Positions 38,158-53,763 of a stretch of 64,000 nt of DNA are shown piece by piece. The stretch is from Sphaerisporangium perillae (GTDB lineage: Bacteria; Actinomycetota; Actinomycetes; Streptosporangiales; Streptosporangiaceae): the NCBI RefSeq assembly GCF_023276435.1, contig NZ_JALLPO010000004.1:62001-126000 (forward strand), in the 5' to 3' direction. The translations under genes and the position numbers were made by a program. A model generated the notes under the pieces. The model was not told where the DNA came from. It worked only from the letters and a program-made list of their open reading frames with translations, and made no database searches. How positions within the stretch are numbered: position 1 is the first letter of the stretch; each line of letters opens with the position of its first letter.

Positions 38158-40121
38158 CGCCGGGGCAGCCCCTCTACGTGCCGCCGCCGGACCTCCGCCG
38201 CACGACCCGGATCGGCCACTACCTCGGCTGGCTGGAGGAGAACCGAGGACTCACCTTTTCTTCCTACGACGAGCTGCACCGCTGGTCGGTCACCGACCTC
38301 GACGGCTTCTGGTCCTCCATCTGGGACCACTTCCAGGTCCGTGCGCACACCCCGCCCCGGCGTGTACTGGGCCGACGCGAGATGCCGGGAGCCGAATGGT
38401 TTCCGGGCGCGACCCTCAACTACGCCGAGCACGCCTTGCGTTCCCGCGAGGCCGCCCCGCACGAGGTGGCCGTCGTCGCCCACTCGCAGACCCGCCCGCC
38501 GGTGGAGCTGAGCTGGGGGCAACTGGCCGATCAGGTCGCCCGGGCGAGGGCCGGTCTGCGCCGCCTCGGGGTCGGCCGCGGGGACCGGGTAGTCGCCTAT
38601 CTGCCCAGCATCCCCGAGACCCTGGTCGCGTTCCTCGCGACGGCCAGCCTCGGCGCGGTGTGGGCGAGCTGCGCACCGGAATTCGGCGCCGCCGCCGTCG
38701 TCGACCGCTTCTCCCAGATCGAACCGACCGTCCTGCTCGCCGTCACCGGCTATAGCTACGGCGCCAAGGACATCGACCGCCGCGACGATGTGGCGGCCGT
38801 CCGAGCCGGGCTGCCCACCGTACGGCACGCCGTCCACGTCCCCTACGGCCCCGGCGAACTCCCGGACACCGTCCGGTGGGACGACCTGCTCGCCGGGCCC
38901 GGCGACCCCGGATTCGAGCCCGTCCCGTTCGCCCACCCGCTGTGCGTGCTGTTCTCGTCGGGTACCACAGGCAAGCCCAAGCCGATCGTGCACGGCCACG
39001 GCGGCATTCTCCTGGAGCACCTCAAGAACCATGCCCTGAGCTGGGACCTGGGTCCCGGCGACCGGCTGCTGTGGTTCTCCACGACCGCTTGGATGATCTG
39101 GAACGCCCTCGTCTCCGGGCTCGTGGTGGGCGCCTCGATCGTCATGATCGACGGCAACCCCCTGTATCCCGGCCTGGATTGGCAGTGGCAACTCGCCGAG
39201 GAGACCGGTGCCACCCTGTTGGGCGCCAGCCCCGGCTTCCTCATGGCCTGCCGCAAGGAGGGCCTGACACCGCGGAAGGATCACGACCTGTCCCGGCTGC
39301 GCCAGATCGGTGCCGCCGGCAGTCCGCTGCCGGCCGAGGGTTACTACTGGGTGCACGAGCAGTTCGGCCCGGACGTCCTCCTCAACGTCGGCAGCGGAGG
39401 CACCGACGTGTGCTCGGGGCTGGTCCAGGGCGGCCCCTGGCAGCCGGTCATCGCCGGGGAGATCTCGGCCCCTTGCCTGGGCGTCGCCGCGGCGGCCTTC
39501 GACGAGCGGGGCCGCGCGGTCGTCGACGAACTCGGCGAACTGGTCGTCACCGAGCCCATGCCGTCCATGCCGGTGGGCTTCTGGGGCGACACGGACGGCT
39601 CCCGCTACCACGCCGCCTACTTCGACACCTATCCCGGAGTGTGGAAGCACGGCGACTGGGTGCGCTTCGCCCCGCAGGGAAACTGCGTCATCGCCGGGCG
39701 CTCCGACGCCACCCTCAACCGTGGCGGAGTGCGGCTGGGCACCGCGGAGTTCTACCGCGTCATCGAAGAACTCCCGCAGATCGACGACAGCCTGGTGATC
39801 CATCTCGAAGACCCCGCGGGCGGCCCCGGCGAGCTGCTTCTGTACGTGGTTCTGCGCGACAGCGCCGAACTCGACGAGGCCCTACGACGGCGTATCGCCG
39901 CGGCGTTGCGCGGTGCCCTGTCCCCCCGGCACGTGCCGGACAGCATCACCGCCATCCCGGCCATCCCACGCAACCGTACGGGGAAGAAGCTCGAACTGCC
40001 CGCCAAGAGGATCCTGCTCGGAGCTGAAGCGGCCGATGTCGCCAGCCGTGACGCGCTGGCCGATCCCGCCTCCCTGGACCCCTTCGTCGCCGAGGCAGCC
40101 GCCCGCCGAGCCGCGCGCTGA
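38154..40121 (+). CDS. Acetoacetate-CoA ligase (acetoacetyl-CoA synthetase)
   Basis: This 655-residue ANL-superfamily enzyme has the length and N-terminal layout of acetoacetyl-CoA synthetases (YDELHRWSVTDLDGFWSSIWDHF, then MPGAEWFPGATLNYAEH). The adenylation P-loop is FSSGTTGKPKPIVHGHGG, the A5-type motif GSGGTDVCSG and the final Lys in RNRTGKKLELP. It would activate acetoacetate with ATP and CoA. GTG 38154 overlaps the lipoprotein stub by 4 nt; the frame extends to 37998, but that part has no family similarity. It ends 8 bp before the convergent PaaX gene. Confidence 0.92.
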   Translation: MTPGQPLYVPPPDLRRTTRIGHYLGWLEENRGLTFSSYDELHRWSVTDLDGFWSSIWDHFQVRAHTPPRRVLGRREMPGAEWFPGATLNYAEHALRSREAAPHEVAVVAHSQTRPPVELSWGQLADQVARARAGLRRLGVGRGDRVVAYLPSIPETLVAFLATASLGAVWASCAPEFGAAAVVDRFSQIEPTVLLAVTGYSYGAKDIDRRDDVAAVRAGLPTVRHAVHVPYGPGELPDTVRWDDLLAGPGDPGFEPVPFAHPLCVLFSSGTTGKPKPIVHGHGGILLEHLKNHALSWDLGPGDRLLWFSTTAWMIWNALVSGLVVGASIVMIDGNPLYPGLDWQWQLAEETGATLLGASPGFLMACRKEGLTPRKDHDLSRLRQIGAAGSPLPAEGYYWVHEQFGPDVLLNVGSGGTDVCSGLVQGGPWQPVIAGEISAPCLGVAAAAFDERGRAVVDELGELVVTEPMPSMPVGFWGDTDGSRYHAAYFDTYPGVWKHGDWVRFAPQGNCVIAGRSDATLNRGGVRLGTAEFYRVIEELPQIDDSLVIHLEDPAGGPGELLLYVVLRDSAELDEALRRRIAAALRGALSPRHVPDSITAIPAIPRNRTGKKLELPAKRILLGAEAADVASRDALADPASLDPFVAEAAARRAAR

Positions 40122-40128
40122 CCCGGTT

Positions 40129-40965
40129 TCACAGGCTGATTTCGTCCAGCAGCGCTGCCGCCAGCTTGGCGGCGCCCGGGGCGATCTTGCGGTTGAGCAG
40201 GCTGAAGACCTGCTCGGCGCGGATCGCCGGCCACTGCTCGGGCAGGTGCTCGGCCGGCAGATGAGGGTCCCATCGGACGACCTGCAGCCAGTCGGTGTGC
40301 AGGCGGATCTGGCAGGCGAGGTCGTCACCTGCCACGGCCGGTGGTGGGCTGGTGTCCCACTGGCCCAGGAACGCTTGGTAGCGGGCGGCGATGCCGTCGA
40401 TGTCGAAGGCGCGGCGGATCAGGTCGGCGGAGTCGGTCAGCCCCATGGCCCGTGCCTGCAAAGTGGTGACGTGGTCACCCAGTTCGAGGGGTGCGAGGGC
40501 CGCCGCGATGTCCTTGGTGCCCGGAGCGATCCACAGGCCTGCCTGGAGAGAGGCGAAGCCGGCCCAGGCAAGTCGGGAGCGCAGGTCGTGGCGTGTGCTC
40601 ACCCGGTCGTTGGGGAGTGAGAAAGCGACCACGGTCCAGGTGCCGTCCCAGTCCTCGTTGACCGCGCCGGTGTCACGGACCCGCCGGCGCCCGTCCTGCA
40701 GTACACGGATGGCGCGCTCGGTGAGACCGAAATAGGCCTTGCGTCCTCTGCGATGACGCGTCAGCAGGTCACGCCTGGCCATGCGGGACAGGGTGGAGCG
40801 CACCGCATCCTCCGACACGCCCAGGCGGGCCAGGACGTCGATGACGCTTCCGGAGTACACGGCGACGTCGCGGTCCAGCACGTAGATGCCAAGGAAGCTG
40901 AACATCAGTGATTGCGGCCGAGCCGAAGTCGCCGCGGTCTGCTCGTCCTCGTTTTCGAACGTCAC
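40129..40965 (-). CDS. PaaX-family transcriptional repressor
   Basis: This 278-residue protein has the PaaX layout: winged helix at the N-terminus (SFLGIYVLDRDVAVYSGSVIDVLARLG, VRSTLSRMARRDLLTRHRRGRKAYF), a central PaaX domain (DWDGTWTVVAFSLPNDR) and a C-terminal domain. PaaX proteins repress aromatic or related acyl-CoA catabolism genes and respond to a CoA thioester. The start at 40965 is uncertain, with no Shine-Dalgarno; a -10-like TACCCT just upstream suggests leaderless translation, and an in-frame GTG lies at 41001. It is divergent from the MHS transporter gene. Confidence 0.9.
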   Translation of the reverse strand: MTFENEDEQTAATSARPQSLMFSFLGIYVLDRDVAVYSGSVIDVLARLGVSEDAVRSTLSRMARRDLLTRHRRGRKAYFGLTERAIRVLQDGRRRVRDTGAVNEDWDGTWTVVAFSLPNDRVSTRHDLRSRLAWAGFASLQAGLWIAPGTKDIAAALAPLELGDHVTTLQARAMGLTDSADLIRRAFDIDGIAARYQAFLGQWDTSPPPAVAGDDLACQIRLHTDWLQVVRWDPHLPAEHLPEQWPAIRAEQVFSLLNRKIAPGAAKLAAALLDEISL

Positions 40966-41255
40966 GCCTAGAGGGTAGACGAGACGGCCAATGTTGGTCA
41001 CAATCTTGACGTAGAGAAAAAACCTGCCCTACTTTACGGGCGGGTCGGCTGACCGGACACCGGTGGTAGTTCCGGGGGACGGCCGGACACGGCTGACACC
41101 AGCCGGGCCCGACCGCGGCCCCGAACATCCACCGGACGCACCTCGCTGCTTCTTGCTACGAGCACGCCGTGCAAGACGGGCATCCACGTCATCCACCACT
41201 GAAGCCACGCCGCTTTGCGGGCTGTTCCACCTCAGCGAGCAAGGGAGCTCACGAC

Positions 41256-42632
41256 ATGCAGGCCGCTTCTCCCCATCAGGTAACGCACGATCCCCTGCAG
41301 TTGCGCCGGGCGGTGACCTCCAGCTTCCTGGGGAGCGTCATCGAGTACTACGACTTCCTCCTGTACTCCACCGCATCGGCGGTGATCTTCGCCCACGTCT
41401 TCTTCTCCAACCTCGGCCCCGTGGCCGGCACCCTCGCCAGCTTCACCACCTTCGCCACGGGCTACCTGGCCAGGCCGCTGGGCGGGATCATCTTCGGGCA
41501 CTTCGGGGACCGGCTCGGCCGCAAGCAGATGCTTGTGCTGACGATGGCTCTCATGGGTGTCGCCAGCTTCCTCATCGGCGTCCTGCCCACGTACGGCCAG
41601 GTGGGCACCCTGGCACCGGTCGCACTGCTGCTCCTGCGGATCATCCAAGGAGTGGCGGTAGGCGGTGAGTGGGGCGGTGCCGTGCTCATCTCCGCCGAGC
41701 ACGCCACCCGACGGCGAGGGCTGTGGGCAAGCTTCACCAACGCCGGCGCCCCCTTCGGCATGGCGCTCTCCACGGTCGCCTTGTCGGCGACGGCGGCCGC
41801 TGTCGGTGAGGACGCCTTCCTGTCCTGGGGTTGGCGCATCCCCTTCCTGCTCAGCCTGGTGCTGCTGGCCGTCGGCCTGTTCATCCGGGTGCGCGTCACC
41901 GAAACACCGGTGTTCGCCGAGGCGGAGAAGAAGCAGGAATCGACGCCGCGCCCATCCCTCCCCCTGTGGGACGTGCTGCGCCACTACCCCCGGGTGCTGC
42001 TGCTGGGCATCGGGGTCGGCCTGTCTGCGTTCGTCTTCCAGGGCACCGTGACCACGTACATCATCTCCTACGCGGTCCAGGACGGCTTCGCACGGCAGAC
42101 GGTGCTCAACAGCCTGGCGGTGTCCTCCGCGCTGGCGGTGGCCGGCATCATCGGCTGGTCGGCGCTGTCCGACCGCCTGGGACGGCGTCCGGTGGTCATG
42201 GCGGGCGCGCTGGCGGTGGGCGGCTTCTCCTTCGCGCTGTTCCCGCTCGTCGACACGGGCAGCACAGCGCTGCTCGTGCTGGCGCTGGTGGTCGGGCAGT
42301 CGCTGGTGCATCCGATGATGTACGGCCCGCTCGCCGCGCTGTACACGGAACTGTTCTCCACCCGGAGCCGTTACACCGGCGCTTCCCTCGGTTACCAGAT
42401 CGCAGGACTGGGGGCCGGCTTCGCCCCGCTGATCTTCACCGAGGTGCGGGCCGACGCCGGTGAAGGGGCAACGCTGATCATCTCTGCGATCATCGCCGCG
42501 TTCTGTCTGGGGACGGTGGTGTGCCTCGCCCTGCTCGGGGAGACCAGCCGCACCGATCTCGCCGGCATGTCCGCGGACTCCTCGGCAGGGCTGCCCGTCA
42601 ACGGTCAGGCGGATGCTGCTCCGGCTTCGTGA
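41256..42632 (+). CDS. MHS-family MFS transporter (organic acid symporter-like)
   Basis: This 458-residue protein has twelve membrane segments and the hallmarks of the metabolite:H+ symporter family: the first-helix SFLGSVIEYYDFLLY, the MFS motif GHFGDRLGRKQML, then RIIQGVAVGGEWGGAVL and a central WGWRIPFLLSLVL. Members import shikimate, alpha-ketoglutarate, proline betaine or aromatic acids with protons. AGGGAG precedes the ATG. Placed between PaaX and a beta-oxidation-like operon, it is likely the importer of the pathway's acid substrate. Confidence 0.92.
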   Translation: MQAASPHQVTHDPLQLRRAVTSSFLGSVIEYYDFLLYSTASAVIFAHVFFSNLGPVAGTLASFTTFATGYLARPLGGIIFGHFGDRLGRKQMLVLTMALMGVASFLIGVLPTYGQVGTLAPVALLLLRIIQGVAVGGEWGGAVLISAEHATRRRGLWASFTNAGAPFGMALSTVALSATAAAVGEDAFLSWGWRIPFLLSLVLLAVGLFIRVRVTETPVFAEAEKKQESTPRPSLPLWDVLRHYPRVLLLGIGVGLSAFVFQGTVTTYIISYAVQDGFARQTVLNSLAVSSALAVAGIIGWSALSDRLGRRPVVMAGALAVGGFSFALFPLVDTGSTALLVLALVVGQSLVHPMMYGPLAALYTELFSTRSRYTGASLGYQIAGLGAGFAPLIFTEVRADAGEGATLIISAIIAAFCLGTVVCLALLGETSRTDLAGMSADSSAGLPVNGQADAAPAS

Positions 42633-42897: not shown

Positions 42898-44046
42898 TCA
42901 GGGCCGCAGGGAGCGGCCGATGATCTCCTTCATGATCTCTGTGGTGCCGGCATACAGCGTGCTCGCGCGGGCGTCGAGGAAATCGCGGGCGACGTCGTAT
43001 TCCGTCATGTAGCCGTAGCCGCCGTGCAGTTGCAGGCTGCGTGTGACGACGCGCTGCTGGAGTTCGGTGGTCCACCACTTGGCCATGGCTGCGTCGACGG
43101 GGCTGAGCCGGCCGGCGACGAGTTCGGTGACGCACCGGTCGAGGAACACCCGGGCGACCTGCACCTCGGTGGCGATCTCGGCGAGGGTGAACCTGTTGGC
43201 CTGGAAGCCGGCGACGGACCGTCCGAACGCGGTGCGCTCCGCCGTGTACTGAAGGGTGTTCTTCAGGGTGCGTTCCATGGAGGCGACCGCGGTGGCGGCG
43301 ACGCTCAGACGCTCCTGCGGAAGGTTGTGCATGAGATAGGCGAAACCGCGGCCCTCCTCGCCCAGCAGGTTCGCGGCGGGCACCCGTACGTCCGTGAACG
43401 ACAGCTCGGCCGTGTCCTGGGCATGCAGACCGATCTTGTCCAGCTTGCGGCCCCGCTCGAAGCCGGGCATGCCGCGCTCAAGCACCAGAAGGCTGATGCT
43501 GTCGCGGCCGACGGCCGGATCGGTGGAGACGACGGCGACGACAAGGTCGGCGAGGATGCCGTTGCTGATGAAGGTCTTGGCTCCGTTGACGACGTACTCG
43601 TCCCCGTCGCGTACCGCGGTGGTCCGTACGGCCTTCAGGTCGCTGCCGGTGCCGGGCTCGGTCATGGCGATGGCCGACACCTTCGTACCGCTGCACAGGT
43701 CCGGCAGCCAGCGCTGTCGCTGCTCCTCGGTGGCCAGGTCCCTCAGGTAGGGCGCCACGAGGTCGTTGAACCCGCTCAGGTTCATGGTCACGGCGGCTGC
43801 TCCGGCGCGGCACAGCTCTTCGATGACGACGAGGTTGTAGCGGAAGTCCGCGACACCGCCCCCACCGTACGCCTCGTCGATGTCCAGGCCCAGCAGACCC
43901 ACGGCGCCGGCCTTCACGTACAGTTCCCTGTCCACCTGCCCGGCTTGTTCCCAGGCTGACAGATGCGGCTGGACTTCCTTGGTGACGAAGTCCCGCACCA
44001 TTGCGCGAAAGTCCTGGTGGTCGGTGTCGAACAGGTCGCGGTCCAT
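42898..44046 (-). CDS. Acyl-CoA dehydrogenase, long-chain-like subfamily
   Basis: This 382-residue flavoenzyme matches acyl-CoA dehydrogenases: MTEPGTGSDLKAV (FAD/substrate motif), FISNGILAD, RTAFGRSVAGFQ, LQLHGGYGYMTEYDV and the end YAGTTEIMKEIIGR. The usual Glu in Y-E-G-T is replaced by Ala, but LPQERL in the G-helix fits the position of the catalytic Glu used by LCAD-type enzymes, and the overall match to LCAD is good. It would form the 2,3-double bond of an acyl-CoA. ATG 44046 follows GAAGGA. It is the last gene of the SDR-ligase-MaoC-ACAD operon. Confidence 0.93.
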   Translation of the reverse strand: MDRDLFDTDHQDFRAMVRDFVTKEVQPHLSAWEQAGQVDRELYVKAGAVGLLGLDIDEAYGGGGVADFRYNLVVIEELCRAGAAAVTMNLSGFNDLVAPYLRDLATEEQRQRWLPDLCSGTKVSAIAMTEPGTGSDLKAVRTTAVRDGDEYVVNGAKTFISNGILADLVVAVVSTDPAVGRDSISLLVLERGMPGFERGRKLDKIGLHAQDTAELSFTDVRVPAANLLGEEGRGFAYLMHNLPQERLSVAATAVASMERTLKNTLQYTAERTAFGRSVAGFQANRFTLAEIATEVQVARVFLDRCVTELVAGRLSPVDAAMAKWWTTELQQRVVTRSLQLHGGYGYMTEYDVARDFLDARASTLYAGTTEIMKEIIGRSLRP

Positions 44047-44194
44047 GGCCGGCAGTCCTTCGGAGGATGTGAGGGGCGTGGGTGTCGAGAGCGGCAGCCG
44101 GCTCTTCGCGGTTGCGCCTCGTTCCGTCCGAACAGTTGCGAGGTGCGTGGCTGCGCGAGGCGGGCAGCCGTCTGCCGCTGCGGGGTGGTGATCC

Positions 44195-44659
44195 TCAGGC
44201 GTAGTGGCGGTAGATGGCCTGCGCGGCGCAGGCGGGTTTGTCAGAGCCCTCGATCTCCACGGTGAAGGCGAGCCGCATCTCGACACCGTTGCCGCGGACC
44301 TCCTCCACGGACTCCACCACGCAGTGCAGGCGGATCTTCGCGCCGACCTTCACCGGATGGGGGAAACGGACCTTGTCCAGGCCGTAGTTGAGGCTCATGG
44401 AGGTGCCCTCGATGGCCAGCAACTGGTTGAAGAGAGGGATGATCAGGGACAGGGTCAGGTATCCGTGGGCGATCGTTCCGCTGAACGGACCGGTGGCGGC
44501 GCGCTCGGGGTCGATGTGGATCCACTGGTGGTCGCCGGTGGCGTCGGCGAAGGTGTTCACCCGGTCCTGGGTGATCTCCACCCAGTCGGTACGGCCGAGG
44601 TCGGTCCCGGCGAGGGCCTTGATCTCGTCGAGTCCGGTGACGGTGCGGAATGCGGTCAC
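44195..44659 (-). CDS. MaoC-family enoyl-CoA hydratase
   Basis: This 154-residue single hot-dog domain carries the R-hydratase motif with the catalytic Asp and His: FADATGDHQWIHIDPERA, then GPFSGTIAHGYLTLSL. It would add water to a 2-enoyl-CoA. The gene lies 12 bp after the ligase gene stop on the same strand and 148 bp upstream of the acyl-CoA dehydrogenase. Together with its neighbours it completes the activation, oxidation, hydration and second oxidation steps. Confidence 0.93.
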   Translation of the reverse strand: MTAFRTVTGLDEIKALAGTDLGRTDWVEITQDRVNTFADATGDHQWIHIDPERAATGPFSGTIAHGYLTLSLIIPLFNQLLAIEGTSMSLNYGLDKVRFPHPVKVGAKIRLHCVVESVEEVRGNGVEMRLAFTVEIEGSDKPACAAQAIYRHYA

Positions 44660-44671
44660 GGCAGGTCTCCT

Positions 44672-46156
44672 TCAGATAGTGGTACCGAAGTTGTCGCGGA
44701 TGCGGGGCTTGAGCAGCTTCCCGGCGCCGCTGCGCGGCAGGACGTCGGTGAAGACGAGCGACTTGGGGATCTTGTAGCGGGCCAGGCGCCCTTCCATGAA
44801 GGCGAGGATGTCCTCGGCGCTCGCCTGGGCGCCGGGTGCCAGGACCACGACGGCACGGGGGACCTCGCCCCACTTCTCGTCCCGGACACCGATGACGGCG
44901 CAGTCGCCGACGGCCGGGTGCTCGTACAGAACGTTCTCGATCTCGGCCGGGTAGATGTTCTCCCCACCAGAGATGATCATGTCTTTGGCGCGGTCGACGA
45001 TGGTGACGTACCCGTCCTCGTCGGCGTGGGCGATGTCTCCGGAGCGGAACCAGCCGTCGTGGAAGGCAGTCGCCGTCTCCTCGGGGAGGTTCCAGTATCC
45101 GCTCATGACGTTCGGGCCCTCCACGAGCAGTTCGCCACGTGTGGCGTCCTCGCCTGCGCGGTCGACGATGCGGATGTCGCTGAAGAAGTGGGGAAGACCG
45201 GCGCTGCCAAGCTTGTCGAGGGCGTGCTCGGCGTCGAGCAGGCACACGCCGGGGGACGCCTCGGTCATGCCGTAGCCCTGGAGGAAACCCAGCCCGCGCT
45301 GCTGATAGGTGCGGATCAGCGCTTCGGACACCGGTGCGCCCCCGCACAGCAGGATCCGCAGCGACGACAGGTCGGCGTCGGCGAACCGGGGCTCCGCGGC
45401 GATCTGCCGGAACATGGCCGGCACCCCGAACATCACCGTGACCCGGAAGCGCTCGATCAGGTCGAGGGTGCGGGCAGGCGAGAACGACTCCTCGAGGACG
45501 AGTGTGCCGCCCTTGAGAACGGCGGGCAGGCAGGTCATGTTCAGCGCGGCCGTGTGGAACAACGGCGCGGACAGCAAGGTCACGTCACCGGCGGCGAACT
45601 CCCCGTCGACCAAGGTGTTCAGGCTGTTCCAGATGAGGTTGCCGTGGGTGAGCACGGCGCCCTTGGCATGCCCGGTCGTCCCGGACGTGTACATGATGAC
45701 CGCGGTGTCGGCGTGCGTCACAGGGATGTCGAGAGGCACCGGTGTGCAGGCGGCGAGGTCCTTGTCCAGGCGGTCCCCCACGGCGACCAGACAGGGGGTA
45801 GGGCAGGAGAGGGCGAAGTGCTCGAAGGCCGAGGTGTGCACCAGCACGTTCGCCCCGGAGTCCTGGAGGCAGTGCCACAGTTCGGGTTCGGCGAGCCGGG
45901 TGTTGAGCGGCACGAAGATGGCCCCGAGTTGACCGGCCGCGAAGAAGGTCTCCAGGAAGGAGGGGTGGTTGGGGCCGAGGAAGGCGACGCGGTCGCCGGG
46001 ACGCACGCCGAGGCGGCGCAGATGGTGGGCCAGGCGCGTGGTGCGGTCGTGCAGTTGGGCGTAGGTGATCTGGACACCGCCGTGGACGACGGCGGGGCGG
46101 TGAGGGCTTTTGCGGGCGCGTCGCGCGATCCAAGATCCGACGCCGTGGTTGCGCAT
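44672..46156 (-). CDS. Acyl-CoA ligase (AMP-forming, ANL superfamily)
   Basis: This 494-residue enzyme has the ANL motifs: P-loop MYTSGTTGHAKGAVLTH, A5 GYGMTEASPGV, A7 FRSGDIAHADEDGYVTIVDR, A8 ISGGENIYPAEIENVL and the A10 lysine in RSGAGKLLKP. It belongs with short/medium-chain or aryl-acid CoA ligases of the FadD/LcfB style. It would activate the imported acid for the neighbouring oxidation enzymes. The gene lies 139 bp downstream of the SDR stop. Confidence 0.93.
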   Translation of the reverse strand: MRNHGVGSWIARRARKSPHRPAVVHGGVQITYAQLHDRTTRLAHHLRRLGVRPGDRVAFLGPNHPSFLETFFAAGQLGAIFVPLNTRLAEPELWHCLQDSGANVLVHTSAFEHFALSCPTPCLVAVGDRLDKDLAACTPVPLDIPVTHADTAVIMYTSGTTGHAKGAVLTHGNLIWNSLNTLVDGEFAAGDVTLLSAPLFHTAALNMTCLPAVLKGGTLVLEESFSPARTLDLIERFRVTVMFGVPAMFRQIAAEPRFADADLSSLRILLCGGAPVSEALIRTYQQRGLGFLQGYGMTEASPGVCLLDAEHALDKLGSAGLPHFFSDIRIVDRAGEDATRGELLVEGPNVMSGYWNLPEETATAFHDGWFRSGDIAHADEDGYVTIVDRAKDMIISGGENIYPAEIENVLYEHPAVGDCAVIGVRDEKWGEVPRAVVVLAPGAQASAEDILAFMEGRLARYKIPKSLVFTDVLPRSGAGKLLKPRIRDNFGTTI

Positions 46157-46295
46157 ACGGCTACCGTGCCTTTCGGGGGGAGCCTGGCCTCAGCTCCGGG
46201 CTGAGGGAGCGGTGGCCCGTGCGGGACACCTCCGCGTGCGTGTGCACGTCGATCGCGGTCAGCTGGGCCGGGTCCATGGGGCCGGGGCGGCCATG

Positions 46296-47210
46296 TCAGT
46301 CTCCCGTCGGCGGCTGGGGTGCGGGGATGCCGAAGGTCTCGGGTTGCGCTGCGACACCGTCGCTCCAGGCGGCGGCGATCTCGTCGGCACTCCAGCCGCC
46401 GTCGCGGAAGTCGGCCTTCTTCTCCTGCGGGTGATACCACAGCGCCAGCCGGTCCCCGCCGATGCCGATCGCCTGACCGGTGACGGCGGCCGAGGCGTCG
46501 GAGCCGAGGAAGACGACCAGGCCGGCAGCGTCTTCCACGGTGCCCAGTCCCTCCTGCTTGCGCATCCAGTCCGGCAGAGGGGCACCGGTGCGCTCGGCCT
46601 CCTCGATGGCGGGTGCGAACGCCGGGATCGTCCTGGTCATCTCGGTGGCCGCCACGGGGATGACGGCGTTCACCGTGATCCGCGCCCGTGCCAGCTCCAT
46701 GGCCCAGGTACGGGCCATGGCCACGATGCCGGCCTTGGCCGCCGCGTAGTTGGTCTGCCCGAAGTTGCCGCGCTGCCCGGCCGGTGACCCGATCAGGATG
46801 ATGCGGCCGCCCTCGCCCTGCTCCCGCATCCGCACTGCGGCTGCCCGGGCGCAGGTGAACGTGCCGCGCAAGTGGACACGGACCACGTCGTCGAAGTCGT
46901 CGTCGGTCATCTTCCACAGGACCTTGTCCCGCAGGATGCCGGCGTTGGTCACCAGCACGTCGAGCCGCCCGAAATGCTCCACCGCCGCCGAGATCAGCTC
47001 CTCGGCCGCGGCGGTGGCGCCGACCGCGGCGGTCACTCCGAACGCCTTGCCGCCGACCGACTCCACGCTCTGCACCGCCGCGTCGACGACCTGCCGTTCC
47101 ACGTCGTTGACCACGACGGATGCCCCGGCCGCGGCGAGTGCGCGGGCGTAGGCAAGCCCGAGACCGCGGCCGCTGCCGGTGACGACGGCCACCTTCCCCG
47201 TCAGATCCAT
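46296..47210 (-). CDS. SDR-family 3-hydroxyacyl-CoA dehydrogenase-like protein
   Basis: This 304-residue short-chain dehydrogenase has the Rossmann motif TGSGRGLG (11-18), NAG (89-91) and the catalytic triad Ser142, Tyr155 and Lys159 (YAAAK). Its opening MDLTGKVAVVTGSGRGLGL is like the dehydrogenase part of peroxisomal multifunctional enzyme type 2, which oxidises (3R)-hydroxyacyl-CoA; that fits a MaoC hydratase, which makes the R form. GGAG precedes ATG 47210. It is the first gene of the operon and starts inside the duplicated regulatory block with the MarR-type operator. Confidence 0.9.
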   Translation of the reverse strand: MDLTGKVAVVTGSGRGLGLAYARALAAAGASVVVNDVERQVVDAAVQSVESVGGKAFGVTAAVGATAAAEELISAAVEHFGRLDVLVTNAGILRDKVLWKMTDDDFDDVVRVHLRGTFTCARAAAVRMREQGEGGRIILIGSPAGQRGNFGQTNYAAAKAGIVAMARTWAMELARARITVNAVIPVAATEMTRTIPAFAPAIEEAERTGAPLPDWMRKQEGLGTVEDAAGLVVFLGSDASAAVTGQAIGIGGDRLALWYHPQEKKADFRDGGWSADEIAAAWSDGVAAQPETFGIPAPQPPTGD

Positions 47211-47320
47211 GGAACTCCACCCTTCATCGACAGGATTCCTGGTTATGGCTGACAGTCTCGCGACTAACAGGAATCCTGTCAATGGTGGTGGCGTGGGCCT
47301 ATCTTCCGCAGGGCGCGCAG
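47172..47320. repeat. Duplicated regulatory block, copy 1 (SDR side)
   Basis: About 149 bp that include the first codons of the SDR gene, its ribosome site, the double operator and a leader sequence (GTGGGCCTATCTTCCGCAGG). It matches 48883-49038 in the same orientation along its whole length with scattered differences. Between the two copies lies the secreted hydrolase gene. Confidence 0.85.
47229..47280. promoter_or_regulatory. Double MarR-type operator, copy 1
   Basis: GACAGGATTCCTG (47229-47241) and its perfect inverse CAGGAATCCTGTC (47268-47280). Each arm contains the 11-bp palindrome CAGGAWTCCTG, so there are two sites 37 bp apart centre to centre. On the minus strand, TTGACA within the right arm is followed 17 bp later by GAGACT, a plausible promoter of the SDR operon. 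Confidence 0.75.
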
Positions 47321-47414
47321 TCTCGGCGGGTGATGCCCATGGGACACAGCGCGGAGTGCTCGTGGCCGGGTGCGGCAGGCATGGACAGAGCCGGTCGGGC
47401 GCCGAAGGGAGCCG

Positions 47415-48779
47415 TCATGGCCGGGAGCCGTCATGGTGCGCGAGGTCGTACGGGCGCGGGTACGAGGCGGGCCGGTAGGCCACGTAGCGCGGCTTGCTCG
47501 TCGGATCCGCCTGCTGCGCACGGGAGTTGAGCGTGGCCGGCGAGGTGTCCCAGCTGCCGGTGTCCAAGCGGTGCTCCAGGGTGTCCAGGGCGCCGATGAT
47601 CTCGCCCGAGGTGAAGGTGCAGTGCCCGGGGCCGTCGACGTAGGCCTGGCTCAGCAGGGCGCCCGAGCCGGCTGCGACAGCGGCCCGGCGGTGGGCGCTC
47701 TCCGCCTGGACGGGAACCAGCGGGTCGCCGGTGGTGTGGATGTCGAGCTGGGGGTCGGCGAGCCGGCCCTTGAAAACGCTGGTGTTCCGCATCCACCGTA
47801 CGGCGGCGGGGTCGGCGGAGATACGGGGTGCGCGGTCGAGCGCCGCGAGGTCGGTGCGCAGCGACAGACCCGCCTTCTTGTACAACTCCGTCACCTCCTT
47901 GAACAGCGGGGAGCGGTGGAGCATTGCCGTGTAGTCGACGCCCGTGTTCCAGGACATGTTGCCCCCGGCGCGGCTCTCGGCCTCCTGCCGCCAGCCGAAG
48001 GCGGACAGCTGGAGGAGCCCTGTGACGGCGGTGTACTGGTTGGCCTGCTGGGCGTCCCAGTCGGTGGGGCCCGGCTCGGTCTGCGTGGTGCTGTTGTAGC
48101 CGGGGATGTTGTACAGTGCCGCGGCGAGGGCGACGCGGGCGCGGCCCCCGGCGGTCAGCTGGGCCGCGGTGGCCGCGGCGGTCAGGGTCGTGGCGGCGCT
48201 CTGCGCCTGCGCCCGGCCGGCGAATCCGGTGAGCGGGATGTTCGCGTCCGGCGCCAGCAGTGTCTTCAGCGCGAACGCCGAGTCCAGCGTGTTGTTCCAG
48301 TTCGCCACGCCACCCTGCACCAGACCGCACATGGAGAGCGAGCCGTCGAAGCGGTCCGCGTGCCGCTCGGCCAGCCTCGTCGTGACGAGTCCCCCGTACG
48401 AGGTGCCCCAGGCGATGGTCCGCTTCGCCTTGCCGAACTTGTCGGTGAACAGGTCCAGGGTGGCGAGCTGGTCGGGCACGGCTTCCGTGACCGCCCAGCC
48501 GTTCGTCGCGTACGAGGACCCGATGAGTCCGTAGCCCTGGTCGAGAAGTGAGTCCAGGGTGGCCGGACTGGGCGTGTTCCGGGCGGGGTTGGGCTGTCCG
48601 GCGGGGGCGTAGCCGTGGCTGTAGAGGAGCACGGTGCCGTTCCAGGCGGCAGGGACGTCCATCACGTATGCGGCGCCGGAGGGGAGGCGGCCCTCCAGGT
48701 GGGTGTCCGTGGCGGCCTGTGCGGGTAGGGAGGTGAGAGCACACAGGCAGAGGGTCAGCAGGGCGACTGGAGTTCTCAT
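47415..48779 (-). CDS. Secreted alpha/beta-hydrolase-family protein
   Basis: This 454-residue protein has a signal peptide (MRTPVALLTLCLCALTSLPAQA) and an alpha/beta-hydrolase fold. The oxyanion region is LLYSHGYAPAG, the nucleophile AWGTSYGGLVTTRLA, the Asp in HTTGDPLVPVQAE and the His in VDGPGHCTFTSGE. It is likely an extracellular esterase or peptidase of an actinomycete family I cannot name exactly. It lies between two copies of the MarR-type operator block and reads on the minus strand, so it is likely co-regulated with the SDR operon. The ribosome site is weak. Confidence 0.8.
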   Translation of the reverse strand: MRTPVALLTLCLCALTSLPAQAATDTHLEGRLPSGAAYVMDVPAAWNGTVLLYSHGYAPAGQPNPARNTPSPATLDSLLDQGYGLIGSSYATNGWAVTEAVPDQLATLDLFTDKFGKAKRTIAWGTSYGGLVTTRLAERHADRFDGSLSMCGLVQGGVANWNNTLDSAFALKTLLAPDANIPLTGFAGRAQAQSAATTLTAAATAAQLTAGGRARVALAAALYNIPGYNSTTQTEPGPTDWDAQQANQYTAVTGLLQLSAFGWRQEAESRAGGNMSWNTGVDYTAMLHRSPLFKEVTELYKKAGLSLRTDLAALDRAPRISADPAAVRWMRNTSVFKGRLADPQLDIHTTGDPLVPVQAESAHRRAAVAAGSGALLSQAYVDGPGHCTFTSGEIIGALDTLEHRLDTGSWDTSPATLNSRAQQADPTSKPRYVAYRPASYPRPYDLAHHDGSRP

Positions 48780-48882
48780 CGGGGTCCATTCCGGTGTCGG
48801 TGTGACGGAGCGGGGGGCGGGGTGCTGAAGGACGTTGGCGCGTGTCTCGCACAGCAGTGGTCGGCCGTCTCGTCGATCGTGG

Positions 48883-49038
48883 GCTGCCGGTGGCCGTGCG
48901 CGGCCGCCTTCCCCGTCAGATCCATGGAACTCCGCACTTCATTGACAGGATTCCTGATTATGGCTGACGGTCAGTCTGACGACCGGCAGGAATCCTGTCA
49001 ATAGGGTAGGGTGGACCTATCTTCTGCAGGGCGCGCAG
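48883..49038. repeat. Duplicated regulatory block, copy 2 (MarR side)
   Basis: This block includes a remnant of the SDR start (ATGGATCTGACGGGGAAGG on the minus strand, about nine codons and then broken), the operator and the leader of the MarR gene. It is the counterpart of 47172-47320. Confidence 0.85.
48944..49001. promoter_or_regulatory. Double MarR-type operator, copy 2
   Basis: TTGACAGGATTCCTG (48942-48956) and CAGGAATCCTGTCAA (48987-49001) are perfect inverted arms. Each contains the palindrome CAGGAWTCCTG, 41 bp apart centre to centre. This is 4 bp wider than copy 1. It lies directly upstream of the MarR gene, as expected for autoregulation. Confidence 0.78.
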
Positions 49039-49076
49039 CCGCGGCCGCCCCTCGGGACAGCCGAATGGAGGGCGCC

Positions 49077-49532
49077 GTGTCGGAAGCCGCCATGCAGCCG
49101 GCCGGTCGAGGTGTGAAGGCGCCCCCGTCACTGCTGTACCTGGTCAAACGCGTCGAACTCGTCGTGCGGGCACGGCTCGACGAGCTACTCAAGCCGGCGG
49201 GTGTGACCGCTCTGCAGTACACCGCGCTGACCGTGCTGGAGCGGCATGACGGCCTCACCGCCGCACAGCTCGCCCGTGACTCCTTCGTCACCGCCCAGTC
49301 GATGGCCGACATGGTCCGCACGCTCGAGACCCGGGGCTACGTCGTCCGGCGCCCCAACGCGGCCAACCGGCGCGAGCTTCTCATCGCACTGACCGGCCTC
49401 GGACACGAACTCCTCGCCGAGTACGCGCAGCCCGTACGCGACCTGGAGCGGAGCATGACCGATGGTCTCATCGCCGACCAGATCGCCGAGCTGCGCGCCG
49501 CGCTCGACCACGCTTGGCGGCAGCTCTCCTGA
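49077..49532 (+). CDS. MarR-family transcriptional regulator
   Basis: This 151-residue winged-helix protein has the MarR pattern: LLYLVKRVELVVRARLDELL, then ALQYTALTVL, the recognition region LTAAQLARDSFVTAQSMADMVRTLE, and the wing RRPNAANRRELLIALT. GTG 49077 is preferred because GGAGGG lies six bases upstream; other in-frame starts are at 49011 and 49065. It is next to the operator at 48944-49001 and is the obvious candidate to bind it and its copy at 47229-47280. MarR proteins in catabolic operons often sense an aryl- or acyl-CoA. Confidence 0.92.
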   Translation: MSEAAMQPAGRGVKAPPSLLYLVKRVELVVRARLDELLKPAGVTALQYTALTVLERHDGLTAAQLARDSFVTAQSMADMVRTLETRGYVVRRPNAANRRELLIALTGLGHELLAEYAQPVRDLERSMTDGLIADQIAELRAALDHAWRQLS

Positions 49533-49621: not shown

Positions 49622-50053
49622 TCAGCGCGCCCGCTCCCAGACCGGCGGGACGCCCGGAGTCAGCACGGTGTAGTCGGGTGCCTCCCGCAGTGCCTGCTCC
49701 GCGCCGCCCGGCGTGTAGATCGCGATGATGCGCAGCTGCCGCCAGCCGGTGTTGAAGGTGGAGTGCACCGTTCCCCTCGGCACGAACACGAAGTCCCCGG
49801 CCTTCACCGGGAACTCCCCCGAGTCACCCACGGTTTGGACACCATCGCCATCGATGAAGTACAGGACCTCGTCGGAGTTCGGGTGCGTATGCGGCTCGTG
49901 GCCCTTGGCGGGGTTGATGATCACCTCACCCGCGGTAAGGGGCGCCCCCGAGAAGAGATCGGCGCTCACCCCCCACTTGATGCTTCCCCAGTCGAAGACC
50001 TCGGTCGACAGCTCCGACTGCACGGTTTGGGCCCTCGTCTCGGATTCGCTCAC
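49622..50053 (-). CDS. Cupin-domain protein
   Basis: This 143-residue single-domain cupin has the metal-binding motif 1 HEPHTHPNSDEVLYFIDGDG and motif 2 GDFVFVPRGTVHSTFNTG. Cupins bind a metal and act as oxidases, isomerases or sensors. GTG 50053 follows AGAGGA. It lies 46 bp downstream of the TIM-barrel gene on the same strand, the end of a cluster with the Tm-1-like and PEP-hydrolase-like genes. The substrate is not predictable. Confidence 0.88.
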   Translation of the reverse strand: MSESETRAQTVQSELSTEVFDWGSIKWGVSADLFSGAPLTAGEVIINPAKGHEPHTHPNSDEVLYFIDGDGVQTVGDSGEFPVKAGDFVFVPRGTVHSTFNTGWRQLRIIAIYTPGGAEQALREAPDYTVLTPGVPPVWERAR

Positions 50054-50099
50054 GATTCCTCTCCTTTCCAGTACGTATGCTTCTCGCCTGCACCCGCCC

Positions 50100-50927
50100 T
50101 CAGGGCCGGACGATGATGGACTTGAAGTCTTCGGTCTGCCGGCGGATGCCCGCTTCCGTGGGCAGGCGTTCGATCGAGCTCGCGCCGAAGAAGCCCACGA
50201 CCCCGTCCGTGTGGGTGAGTACGTACTGTGCGTCCGCGGGTTCCGCGATGGGGCCGCCGTGGCACAGGACGAGAATGTCCGGGTTGACCGCGACCGCGGC
50301 ATCCCGAATCGCCTGGATCCGCTCGACGCACTCATCGAGTGTGAGCGCGGTGCGTGCGCCGATGGTGCCCTTGGTGGTCAGGCCCATGTGCGGGACGAGG
50401 ACATCGGCGCCGGCCTCGGCCATGGCGGTGGCCTGGTCGACGTCGAACACGTACGGTGCGGTCAGCAGTTCGCGTTCGTGTGCGGCCGCGATCATCTTGA
50501 TCTCCAGGTCGAAGCCCATCCCGGTCTCCTCCAGGTTCTGGCGGAAGACGCCGTCGATCAGCCCTACCGTCGGGAAGTTCTGCACGCCGGTGAACCCGGC
50601 TTCCTTGACCTTGTCGAGGAAGCGGCCCATCACCCGGAACGGGTCCGTGCCGTTGACGCCCGCGAGTACGGGCGTGTCTTCGACCACGGGGAGCACCTCG
50701 TCCGCCATCTCCATGACGATGGCGTTCGCGTCGCCGTAGGCCAGCAGGCCCGCGAGGGATCCCCGGCCGGCCATCCGGTACCGCCCCGAGTTGTAGACGA
50801 TGAGCAGGTCGATGCCGCCCGCCTCGGCCGACTTGGCGGAGATGCCCGTTCCGGCGCCGCCGCCGATGATCGGCCGGCCTGCCGCGACGGTCGTCCTGAG
50901 CCGTTCGAGTGCCGTGTTCCGGTCCAT
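50100..50927 (-). CDS. PEP-hydrolase-like TIM-barrel protein (Tm-1 C-terminal half)
   Basis: This 275-residue protein belongs to the phosphoenolpyruvate hydrolase-like family, which also forms the C-terminal half of the tomato virus-resistance protein Tm-1. Marker segments are [59 protein letters not shown] and [12 protein letters not shown]. The bacterial reaction is not established. AAGGAA precedes ATG 50927. It follows the Tm-1-like gene by 103 bp on the same strand. Confidence 0.88.
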
Positions 50928-51030
50928 GATCGCGTTCCTTCCCGCCCACGCACGGGGTGGGCACCTGCTGCTCAGCCATACCAGCTGGTTGCTCCAGCTC
51001 ACGGCCGCGCCGCTTCGACCGCCCGCCCCA

Positions 51031-52254
51031 TCACCGAAACGAGGTGATCAGCCCGTGCAGGCGCCGTGCGGCGTCGCGCCCGAACCCGCGGTCGTTGATG
51101 TGCGAGTCCACCTCGACGATCTCAGCCGGCGACCCGGTGAGCGCACCCCGCAGCGCTGAGAAGAGCTCTCCGTCCGCCGCGGCGTCCCGGAACGGGCCGC
51201 CCTCCTTGTCGATGCCGCTCACACCGCGCAGCGGAAGAAGCACCGTGACCGGCCCGCGGGCACGGGACAACTTCGTACCGATGCGCCGGCCGAGTTCGGC
51301 GTTCTCCTCCGGCGTGGTCCGCATCAACGTGACGGTCGGATTGTGGATCACGAAGGTCCGGTCAGCGAAAGCGCCGGGCACTGTCTCACGCGGCCCGAAG
51401 TTGACCAAGTCGAGTGCGCCGAGCGAGACGACCTGGGGGATGCCCTGCTCACCGGCCGCCTCCAGCCGGTGCGGCCCCGCGCTCAGCACACCGCCCACGA
51501 GATCGTCGGCGAGTTCCGTGGTGGTCAGGTCGAGCACTCCCACGAGCCGGCCGTCGCGCACGAGCTTCTCCATCGCGCGCCCGCCGGCACCGGTGGCATG
51601 GAAGACGAGCGGTTCGTAACCGAGGCCGACCAGCTCCGCCCGTGCCTCGTCGACGGCCGGCGTGGTCAGGCCGAACATCGTCAGACCCACCAGTGGCCGC
51701 TGCTCGCCGGCCGGTGCGGTGCGCCGGGCCTCCTGCTCCGCGGCCATCGCGGCGATCGCCGCGGCGGCGTTGGCGAAGACCTGCTCGGAAACGGAGTTGA
51801 TCCCGGCGACGTCGACCACCGAGTGCATGAGCGTCACGTCACTCTCGCCGACGTAGGGCGAGACATCACCCGAGGCCATCGTGGAGACCAGCAGTTTCGG
51901 CACCCCGACCGGCAGGGCGCGCATCGCGCGGGACGCGACCGACGAGCCACCGGAACCGCCGACGGCGAGCACGCCGTCGAGCCGGCCCTCCGCATGCAGC
52001 GCGAGGGTCACCGACGTGGCGCCGGAGGCCATCGCCTCCATGGCCGCGCCCCGATCGCGTGCCTCCCGTAGCGCCGTGAGATCGGCATGCCCGGCCTGGG
52101 CGACCTGCGAAGCGGTGACGTCCGCGGCTGATTCCGAGAACAGCCCGACGTCGATCGTGACGGTGCTCGCCCCGTGCGCGCGTACCCGGTCGGCGATCCA
52201 CGCGTACTCCTCGCCCTTGGTGTCCATCGTGCCGATGAGAACGACCGTGGCCAT
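51031..52254 (-). CDS. Tm-1-like ATP-binding domain protein (UPF0261)
   Basis: This 407-residue protein matches the Tm-1-like/UPF0261 family: [20 protein letters not shown] at the start, [37 protein letters not shown], and a later [22 protein letters not shown]. In plants the same domain binds ATP within Tm-1; in bacteria its function is unknown. AGGAGG lies eight bases before ATG 52254. It leads the Tm-1-like/TIM-barrel/cupin cluster and is divergent from a MocR gene across a perfect operator. Confidence 0.9.
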
Positions 52255-52321
52255 CCTGTATGCCTCCTGCTCTCCTTCGAGCCCTGTGCTGGGCATTGTG
52301 ACAGGGTGGGAGCGTCCCGAG

Positions 52322-52347
52322 TGGTCCACTTGAGACCAAGTGGACCA
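52322..52347. promoter_or_regulatory. Perfect 11-bp inverted repeat between the Tm-1-like and MocR genes
   Basis: TGGTCCACTTG (52322-52332), a 4-nt spacer, then CAAGTGGACCA (52337-52347). It sits in the 114-bp divergent region, 21 bp before the MocR start, and is a likely MocR operator. Confidence 0.75.
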
Positions 52348-52368
52348 AGGCTGAGAGGTGTGCGATCG

Positions 52369-53763
52369 ATGCGGACGAGCGGAGAGGCCGAGCGTGTGGC
52401 CCGGTTGCTCGGCGTGTGGCGCGACGAAACGCCCGTGAGCGTCCCGCTCCGGGACGCGCTCGCTGAGCTGATCGACGGCTCGTACCTGCCGGCCGGCTGG
52501 CGTATGCCCGGCCAGCGGGCGCTGGCGACCGCGCTCGGTGTGGCCAGGGGCACGGTTGCCCGGGCGTACACCGAGCTCACAGCGAGTGGCCGCTTGACCG
52601 CGATGCGCGGTTCGGGCACGTATGTCCGCAGAGCCGCAGGCCTGGTACGGCCCGATGAGGGACGGCTGAGCTCGTTCGGTGACGGCCGGGTGGTCGTCGA
52701 TCTCTCCTCCGGGGCGCTTCCCGGCTCCGAGCTGGTCGCACGCGTCATGCCGGAGGTCAGCAGGCAGCTGCTCGAGCACCACCTCCATGAGACCGGGTAC
52801 CACCCCGCAGGACTGCCGGAACTGCGTGCCGCGCTCGCCGCCCGCATCACGGAGCAGGGTCTGCCCACGCGTACGGACCAGGTGATGGTCACCGCAGGCT
52901 CCCAACAGGCCATCTGGTTGATCGCGACCGCCCTCGCCGGGCCCGGCACGTCGACCCTCGTCGAAGACCCCAGCTACCGAGGGGCTCTGGAAGCCTTGGC
53001 GGCCGCGGGCGGCCGCCTGCGGGGCATCCCTTTGACCCCGGCCGGCGTGGACCTGAGCCTTCTCGAGGCCGCCATCGGCGACGCGGATCTGCTCTACGTA
53101 CAGACCGCGCTGCACAACCCGACCGGTGCCCACATGCCGGAGGCGCAGCGCAGAGTCCTCGCCGACATCGCGGCCAGGCGCGGCACTCTCGTGGTCGACG
53201 ACCAGTCGCAGGCCGAGCTCGGCTGGTTCCGGTCGCAGCCGATGCCGGGGCTCGAACGAATGGCCGACCCTGAACGACTGCTGATCGTGGGCACGCTGTC
53301 GAAGCTGTTCTGGGGCGGGCTGCGAGTGGGATGGGTACGAGGGCCTCGGGAGATCATCGGACGGCTCGCGGCGCTGCGCGGCAGCATCGACCTCGGCGGC
53401 CCGATCGCCGACCAATTGGCGGCGCTGCAGCTGCTGCCCCAGGCGGATCGGCAGCGGGAACTGCGCCGCGAGTTCCTGGCACGGCAGTTCGCGGTCACCG
53501 CAGAGGTCCTCCGTACCGTTTTGCCCCGTTGGCATTGGAGCACCCCCGTGGGCGGGTCAGGCCTCTGGACCGACACCGGTCAGGACGCCGTGGCCCTCGC
53601 GCAGCGTGCTTTGGTACGCGGAATCCGGCTCACCGCCGGCCCGGCGTTCTCTCCGCACGGCGGGCACCGCACCTTCGTGCGGCTGCCCGTATGGCACCCG
53701 CAATTCCGATTCGCCGATGCGGCTCAGGTCATCGCTGACCTTCAGGGCACCCGGTCTCCATGA
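52369..53763 (+). CDS. MocR-type regulator (GntR HTH plus PLP aminotransferase domain)
   Basis: This 464-residue protein has an N-terminal GntR winged helix (about 15-85: VPLRDALAELIDGSYLPAGWRMPGQRALATALGVARGTVARAYTEL) and a fold-type-I aminotransferase domain. The PLP-binding Lys is in GTLSKLFWGGLRVGW. MocR proteins bind DNA under control of PLP and an amino substrate. Start ATG 52369 has GAGAGG upstream. It is divergent from the Tm-1-like cluster and probably controls it through the palindrome at 52322-52347. Confidence 0.92.
   Translation: MRTSGEAERVARLLGVWRDETPVSVPLRDALAELIDGSYLPAGWRMPGQRALATALGVARGTVARAYTELTASGRLTAMRGSGTYVRRAAGLVRPDEGRLSSFGDGRVVVDLSSGALPGSELVARVMPEVSRQLLEHHLHETGYHPAGLPELRAALAARITEQGLPTRTDQVMVTAGSQQAIWLIATALAGPGTSTLVEDPSYRGALEALAAAGGRLRGIPLTPAGVDLSLLEAAIGDADLLYVQTALHNPTGAHMPEAQRRVLADIAARRGTLVVDDQSQAELGWFRSQPMPGLERMADPERLLIVGTLSKLFWGGLRVGWVRGPREIIGRLAALRGSIDLGGPIADQLAALQLLPQADRQRELRREFLARQFAVTAEVLRTVLPRWHWSTPVGGSGLWTDTGQDAVALAQRALVRGIRLTAGPAFSPHGGHRTFVRLPVWHPQFRFADAAQVIADLQGTRSP

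Follow-up and report, generated by a model that had tools for sequence, protein, structure and literature searches.

A probable mosaic of two hydroxycinnamate catabolic clusters in Sphaerisporangium perillae, with a secreted hydrolase gene between two copies of a MarR operator block

Introduction

Among the closest described systems is the CouR regulon of Rhodococcus jostii RHA1 (PMC4737184), where, in the accessible part of that report, a MarR repressor gene is divergent from a pathway gene and the operator, a single cATTGA-N5-TCAATg box between couN and couR, lies over the -35 element. The regulon serves a hydroxycinnamate CoA-thioester pathway in which an amidohydrolase carries out the last deacetylation step. 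Here we describe a locus that is alike in both respects in Sphaerisporangium perillae (assembly GCF_023276435.1). It is located in a stretch of 64,000 nucleotides of contig NZ_JALLPO010000004.1 (positions 62,001 to 126,000, forward strand), which is called the window throughout and numbered from its first letter. In this locus the gene of a secreted alpha/beta hydrolase is present between the first gene of a pathway operon, encoding a short-chain dehydrogenase/reductase (SDR), and the gene of a MarR-family regulator, and the same operator block is found on both sides of it.

The CouR-type layout, with the regulator divergent from the first pathway gene and the operator over the -35 element, is seen in 45 of the 80 loci of MarR relatives considered below, while in the window the insert separates the two genes. 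By gene type, the CouR-type pathway set is represented in the window by ligase, MaoC and SDR genes; the amidohydrolase gene is broken there, with an intact copy on contig C45 of the same genome. In comparison to the single CouR box, each block of the window contains two CAGGAWTCCTG boxes, and the ATTGA-N5-TCAAT sequence of the CouR box is absent from both blocks. The CouR structures 3fm5 and 5cyv are weakly similar in sequence to the window MarR protein (E ~3e-5).

In Streptomyces scabies, the accessible part of PMC6904314 lists SCAB_15591 (hydratase), SCAB_15601 (feruloyl-CoA synthetase), SCAB_15611 (amidohydrolase) and SCAB_15621 (dehydrogenase) in the ferulate proteome table, and gives an increase in expression of SCAB_15591 and SCAB_15601 of more than 100-fold with ferulate and more than 300-fold with p-coumarate. 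These are the same four gene types as in the window and their locus tags are consecutive, but the same part of that paper makes no mention of a MarR regulator and describes no linked esterase. The IclR-type Streptomyces clusters of our own survey (L221-L236) contain the same hydrolase (74-81% identity) and the same pathway enzymes, and differ from the window in that the hydrolase gene mostly resides in an MFS-hydrolase-IclR unit. In the phenylpropanoid methyl esterase cluster of Pseudomonas fluorescens (PMC12642758), an esterase gene likewise lies near a p-coumarate/ferulate cluster and feeds it with ester-released acids; according to the accessible part of that paper, in which operator duplication is unmentioned, the nearest characterised relatives of the esterase are 6-aminohexanoate-dimer hydrolases. 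Among papers judged by title and start of abstract, with subscription papers mostly outside this scope, no match for the operator, the hydrolase family or such a duplication of an operator block was recognised.

Our preferred reading, to which we assign a rough probability of 0.8, is that two catabolic clusters for hydroxycinnamates of the ferulate/p-coumarate type are combined in a mosaic at this locus, in which a donor hydrolase gene was moved under a CouR-like MarR regulator via duplication of the operator block. The native part would be an SDR-ligase-MaoC-acyl-CoA-dehydrogenase operon divergent from the gene of a CouR-like MarR repressor, and a Streptomyces-like, IclR-type segment of ~1.5 kb (the hydrolase gene with scraps of MFS and IclR genes) would have been placed between the two native copies of the operator. 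At the level of sequence, the duplication, the native order in relatives, the donor scraps and the retained predicted promoter, boxes and ribosome site can all be seen.

Results and Discussion

Operator block on both sides of the hydrolase gene

The central features of the locus are the following.

47186 to 47327, no strand: copy 1 of the operator block, with the SDR start, leftward promoter, two boxes and decayed MarR leader; faces the SDR gene
48883 to 49045, no strand: copy 2 of the operator block, with SDR remnant, leftward promoter, two boxes, rightward promoter and MarR leader
46296 to 47210, minus strand: SDR of the (3R)-hydroxyacyl-CoA dehydrogenase type, first gene of the pathway operon; best solved relative a (3R)-hydroxyacyl-CoA dehydrogenase
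47415 to 48779, minus strand: secreted alpha/beta hydrolase, feruloyl-esterase-like, 454 amino acids; signal peptide and GTSYG motif, both read by eye
49077 to 49532, plus strand: MarR-family regulator; start uncertain, in-frame GTG at 49011 or ATG at 49065 possible

Local alignment of positions 47100-47420 with 48800-49130 gave the direct repeats 47186-47327 and 48883-49045, in which 138 of 166 aligned columns are identical (score 187, as compared to a maximum of 32 in 300 base shuffles). The repeat noticed in a preceding sequence-only reading of this DNA is therefore real. However, its two blocks do not match over their whole length as that reading had it, since about one column in six differs, copy 2 has an insertion of 4 bp between the boxes relative to copy 1, and the recognisable part of copy 1 ends before it reaches the MarR gene. 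The gap-free core of the repeat (47186-47257 and 48901-48972) is 92% identical.

The double operator expected in both blocks could be located. The core CAGGAWTCCTG occurs twice per block, at 47231-47241 and 47268-47278 in copy 1 and at 48946-48956 and 48987-48997 in copy 2. Exact ACAGGATTCCTG occurs four times in the 9.3-Mb genome, every time within these two blocks; a scan of the own genome found no exact core outside them, and sites with one mismatch do occur elsewhere. A broken piece of the SDR start had also been proposed for copy 2, which indeed retains the SDR ATG at 48925 and ~14 codons in an altered form.

Native order in relatives and age of the copies

Relatives of the MarR protein were collected by scanning 84,980 species genomes with short peptide patterns, which led to 109 confirmed relatives; the loci used here are the best 80 of the 109, some of which share a species or record, and records close to the window genome are possibly omitted from the sample. 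The SDR gene is directly adjacent and divergent to the MarR gene in 45 of the 80 loci, with projected starts 83-354 bp apart, and in the remaining 35 the pair is missing or widely separated within the fetched stretch. Exactly two CAGGNNNCCTG boxes are present in 44 of these 45 native intergenic regions, the exception being L113 with one box, and by our own estimate (eight fixed bases, equal base frequencies) ~0.002 such sites are expected by chance per 150 bp. Between the boxes AGT[CG]T is kept in 41 of the 45 relatives, and a rightward TANNNT, located 3-5 nt past the right box and its TCAAT, in 43. The native clusters contain an amidohydrolase (45/45), MaoC (45/45) and CoA ligase (43/45) gene. 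A hydrolase gene between SDR and MarR was found in none of the 45 native loci, and among all 80 loci a flanking hydrolase homologue is present only in L087 (43%, downstream of the MarR gene).

Because the divergent SDR-operator-MarR order is intact in 45 of 80 loci, with two boxes in 44 of 45, the ancestral state proposed in the sequence-only reading exists and is common in a form free of the hydrolase. Its further proposal, that this order was split by an acquired hydrolase gene, gains from the same order, from the two copies being closer to each other than to the five near relatives compared and from the donor scraps on both sides that are described below. The donor cluster, the pathway and the overlap between the frame of the SDR remnant and the hydrolase start are additions to that reading.

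Between copy 1 and copy 2, 116 of 132 aligned bases agree and 5 positions are gaps, and each copy is 78-87% identical to the five nearest relatives. The synonymous distance between the window and its closest relative L039 (Streptomyces sp. S465) is 0.27 for SDR and 0.24 for MarR. In an intergenic tree of both copies and 11 of the 45 relatives, FastTree paired the two copies with a support of 0.90. The best reading of these values, resting mainly on the pairwise identities, is that the duplication probably arose within the lineage, after the split from L039, and is not recent. Easy loss of the hydrolase gene by recombination, as once suggested, finds little in its favour: the repeats are 83-88% alike with a longest exact common run of 27 bp, and ready excision across them is unlikely because they are too diverged.

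Donor of the hydrolase segment

Homologues of the hydrolase were surveyed in 392 sampled Streptomyces genomes at a threshold of E <= 1e-150, where the genus label is based on the MarR locus records and similarity. In this survey, as in those of the family (for MarR and hydrolase), the best 4 to 11 candidates were scored per genome. Close relatives were present in 55 of the 392 genomes, with a best identity of 81%, and they reside mostly in MFS-hydrolase-IclR units. Homology to the best locus, L189, is unbroken in blastn from 48854 to 47324 (83.6%) and therefore passes both ends of the hydrolase gene, exceeding the start (48779) by ~75 nt and the end (47415) by ~90 nt. In L189 an MFS gene adjoins this stretch with its 3' end and an IclR-family gene with its 5' end, as identified with Pfam on the L178 homologues. 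Corresponding scraps are present in the window.

48782 to 48854, minus strand: 3'-end scrap of the donor MFS transporter gene; 76.7% over 73 nt to L189, E 1.6e-10; 6 of 20 donor-type loci at E <= 0.01
47324 to 47411, minus strand: 5'-end scrap of the donor IclR-family regulator gene, adjoining copy 1; 71-79% over 61-89 nt in 15 of 20 donor-type loci, best E 3.5e-12

The scraps were tested separately by similarity to the 20 donor-type loci and each is significant on its own. The end of the IclR scrap at 47324 meets the end of copy 1 at 47327, and CGGC is common to the native and the donor sequence.

A wide-flank set of donor-type loci was taken from the top of the list of hydrolase homologues (16 loci, L221-L236, without L178 and L179). 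The pathway SDR, amidohydrolase, CoA-ligase and MaoC genes are beside the hydrolase gene in all 16, accompanied by IclR in 14, MFS in 13 and PaaX in 15. Pathway genes are next to the hydrolase gene also in L178 and L179, and in the distant genome of L152 the hydrolase gene is the first in an SDR-amidohydrolase-ligase-MaoC row. No MarR gene or box was found upstream of the hydrolase gene in the 41 locus records scanned. Within the family, seven of the 46 MarR-positive genomes have a distant homologue of the hydrolase (41-46% identical) located beside a MarR gene; as these seven pairs are not close relatives of the window pair, the capture in the window looks independent of them.

In other genomes of the family, distant hydrolase homologues adjoin MarR genes in L156, L157, L158, L159 and L160, and variant boxes such as CAGGAAACCTG or CAGGTTTCCTG are present in four of these five loci, so that this type of hydrolase may have come under MarR control repeatedly.

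Predicted control of the hydrolase gene

The following elements were predicted in and next to the two blocks.

47254 to 47282, minus strand: predicted SDR promoter, copy 1; TTGACA, 17 nt, GAGACT
48973 to 49001, minus strand: predicted hydrolase promoter, copy 2, equal to the inherited SDR promoter; TTGACA, 17 nt, CAGACT
49007 to 49012, plus strand: -10 element of the predicted MarR promoter, copy 2, TAGGGT; the copy 1 equivalent at 47289-47294 is TGGCGT
48776 to 48925, minus strand: leader frame of 49 codons from the SDR start codon into donor sequence; its TGA overlaps the hydrolase ATG (ATGA)

The right box overlaps the leftward promoter TTGACA-17-NAGACT in both copies. Both predicted promoters are kept in copy 2, while copy 1 has lost the rightward one, which would run against the hydrolase gene. 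Copy 1 thus seems to have lost the promoter no longer needed there, and copy 2 would have to serve the hydrolase gene as well as the MarR gene. Copy 2 is also the nearest predicted promoter to the hydrolase gene because any promoter ahead of the donor MFS gene was lost. In L189 the MFS stop codon overlaps the TTG start of the hydrolase gene, which is the geometry of the leader frame in the window. Since the frame from the inherited SDR start stops in overlap with the hydrolase start, translational coupling is possible, and the copied SDR start may have taken over this coupling to the hydrolase gene.

The suggestion of the sequence-only reading that a third gene came under the same repressor agrees with the leftward promoter, boxes, ribosome site and start codon kept in copy 2, from which we strongly infer that the hydrolase gene is under MarR control. 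In the proposed mechanism, the MarR protein would bind to the four boxes and repress SDR, the hydrolase and itself, and would be released by an aromatic acyl-CoA formed by the ligase. The hydrolase, possibly translated by coupling to the frame from the inherited SDR start, would be secreted and free hydroxycinnamates from plant esters, and the acids would then be imported and degraded. More tentatively, and as a course that we consider less probable than not having occurred, enrolment could have happened in one step, the entire divergent block including ribosome site and start codon being copied past the insert and the copied start replacing the donor MFS gene in the coupling; such a step could be a general route of gene capture by MarR clusters.

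The MarR protein contains PF12802 and PF01047, both above their cut-offs, and its best solved relative is HcaR. In Actinoallomurus iriomotensis (L044 and L161), a second MarR gene of 52% identity is located at L161:6761-7171 on the minus strand, tail-to-tail with the first, and a variant box, CAGGAAACCTGTACATC, is present upstream of it.

Nature of the hydrolase

The hydrolase matches PF00561 with 30.4 bits (cut-off 25.8). In its GTSYG motif, which fits the GxSxG nucleophile motif, the S, the first G+2 and the last G are invariant in 21 aligned rows. The structure model has a pLDDT of 90.3, and the top 27 Foldseek hits for it are MHETases, feruloyl esterases and one Aspergillus oryzae esterase (best E ~1e-10). 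The 'tannase-like' Pfam family DUF6351 was obtained with 21.4 bits against a cut-off of 22.4, on the donor homologue of L189 only. No good sequence relative of the hydrolase was found in the PDB, the best values being an E of 0.14 in phmmer and a profile E of 0.002 to dipeptidyl peptidase 2. From its gene neighbours in the donor-type loci and the model together, the hydrolase is likely to be an esterase which frees hydroxycinnamates from plant esters.

Points against the mosaic and alternative explanations

Several observations weigh against the mosaic reading. Copy 2 is nearly as alike to L043 (103/118, 22 gap positions) as it is to copy 1, and IQ-TREE did not recover the pair of copies (support of nearby nodes 28 and 62). 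Conservation between the copies shows no significant excess in the boxes over the rest (p = 0.19), and therefore selection on the boxes is not claimed from the divergence of the copies. The leader frame has a chance probability of ~0.18 (open in 2692 of 5000 base shuffles, multiplied by 1/3 for the frame) and was set aside as a proof of translational coupling, being suggestive at most. Nine of the 11 loci L178-L188 contain a hydrolase homologue with no pathway genes in the fetched flank; what is found there is MFS, PaaX, a ligase of weak similarity or nothing of the pathway, and L187 with its 76% homologue is one of the nine. The amidohydrolase gene is broken in the window, although an intact copy at C45:117023-117922 shares 77% identity with the one in L039; no other pathway genes are found in the 15 kb fetched around that copy. 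As for the hydrolase, the Foldseek hits have query TM-scores of 0.33-0.40 with a large root-mean-square deviation and identities of just 10-18%. In VIA-align, LipA (a secreted esterase), acylaminoacyl peptidases, a feruloyl esterase and a cinnamoyl esterase are no more than 1.5 Z units apart, and because esterases and peptidases are ranked together, the fold alone does not define the substrate.

The strongest alternative is a variant that shares the main anatomy and is compatible with the mosaic reading, namely assembly of the mosaic in a different, unsampled actinomycete and its later transfer to this genome as one unit, for which the odds appear to be just short of even; the capture would then be uninformative about the present lineage. 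The MarR gene was found in only one of 11 genomes of the genus, that of the window, and as it was not found in the other ten, the whole cluster or the completed mosaic may have come from outside. Moreover, a Streptomyces has an SDR of 89% and a MarR of 87% identity to those of the window. On the other hand, a second genome with the mosaic is not present among the 80 MarR loci, nor among the 46 MarR-positive of 341 genomes of the family, where the best non-self match (81-82%, G017) is without the hydrolase. A plasmid origin was considered and rejected: a distant blastn search of 47186-49046 against 72,556 plasmid records gave just two weak partial matches, which cover 14% and 9% of the query and lie within the hydrolase part only.

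It is unlikely that the duplication is a neutral scar and that the hydrolase gene is expressed from its own or another signal, outside MarR control. The conservation of the boxes, not above background as given above, and a leader geometry that could be due to chance would agree with such a scar. However, copy 2 is separated from the hydrolase gene by just the 73-nt donor MFS scrap and ~28 further, unassigned bases, and it has kept both predicted promoters where copy 1 lost only the one opposing the hydrolase gene. As judged from a dN/dS of 0.29 relative to L189, the hydrolase gene is also under purifying selection.

False joining of two loci at the repeat during assembly is very improbable. 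The source assembly is a draft of 120 contigs, but divergence between the copies amounts to 12-17% of positions, identity of the donor scraps to Streptomyces loci is just 71-79%, and the locus lies deep within a contig of 126 kb or more. A composite mobile element, with the repeats as its ends and the hydrolase gene as cargo, would account for a gene between two direct repeats and can practically be dismissed, as the repeats correspond to native intergenic DNA in 45 relatives, the hydrolase gene is the sole gene called between them, no transposase or element-specific ends are present there and the exact core is nowhere else in the genome.

If the mosaic reading is correct, the locus is of value because scars of a regulator takeover have usually gone, whereas here the two parent types, the two junctions and the altered control would be legible in a single stretch of 2 kb. 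The gene gained would be one that the recipient pathway could use. The comparison also connects hydroxycinnamate catabolism in actinomycetes with an uncharacterised family of secreted hydrolases, and a simple enzyme test is therefore worthwhile.

Pathway operon and neighbouring genes

Downstream of the SDR gene the operon continues on the minus strand, followed by a transporter and a regulator gene.

46173 to 46296, minus strand: 5' remnant of the (CouO-like) amidohydrolase gene of the native operon, between the SDR and ligase genes
44672 to 46156, minus strand: CoA ligase of the feruloyl-CoA-synthetase type; best solved relatives 8weu (613.5 bits) and 8wev (612.4 bits)
44195 to 44659, minus strand: MaoC-type enoyl-CoA hydratase; best solved relative Rv0130
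42898 to 44127, minus strand: acyl-CoA dehydrogenase
41256 to 42632, plus strand: MFS transporter, candidate importer of aromatic acids
40129 to 41001, minus strand: PaaX-type regulator

The gap between the SDR and ligase genes is ~830 bp shorter than in L039. Of the two solved relatives of the ligase, 8weu is named a fatty-acyl-CoA synthase and 8wev a feruloyl-CoA synthetase. From the types of the pathway genes, these ligase relatives and the ferulate data in the accessible part of the S. scabies paper (PMC6904314), it is very probable that the native cluster encodes a Cou-type hydroxycinnamate pathway. The match of the ligase to feruloyl-CoA synthetase led us to abandon unspecific fatty-acid degradation as a reading.

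Adjoining the MarR gene, positions 49622-53535 contain a row of cupin, phosphoenolpyruvate (PEP)-hydrolase-like (PF09370) and UPF0261 (Tm-1-like) genes on the minus strand, with a MocR-type regulator gene opposite. None of the cupin, PF09370 and UPF0261 genes was found in the loci of the 80 relatives at >=45% identity. On the other side, positions 38200-42632 adjoin the pathway operon with an acetoacetyl-CoA-synthetase-like gene (read by eye) and the PaaX-type regulator and MFS transporter genes; PaaX and MFS genes are likewise present in most of the IclR-type Streptomyces clusters.

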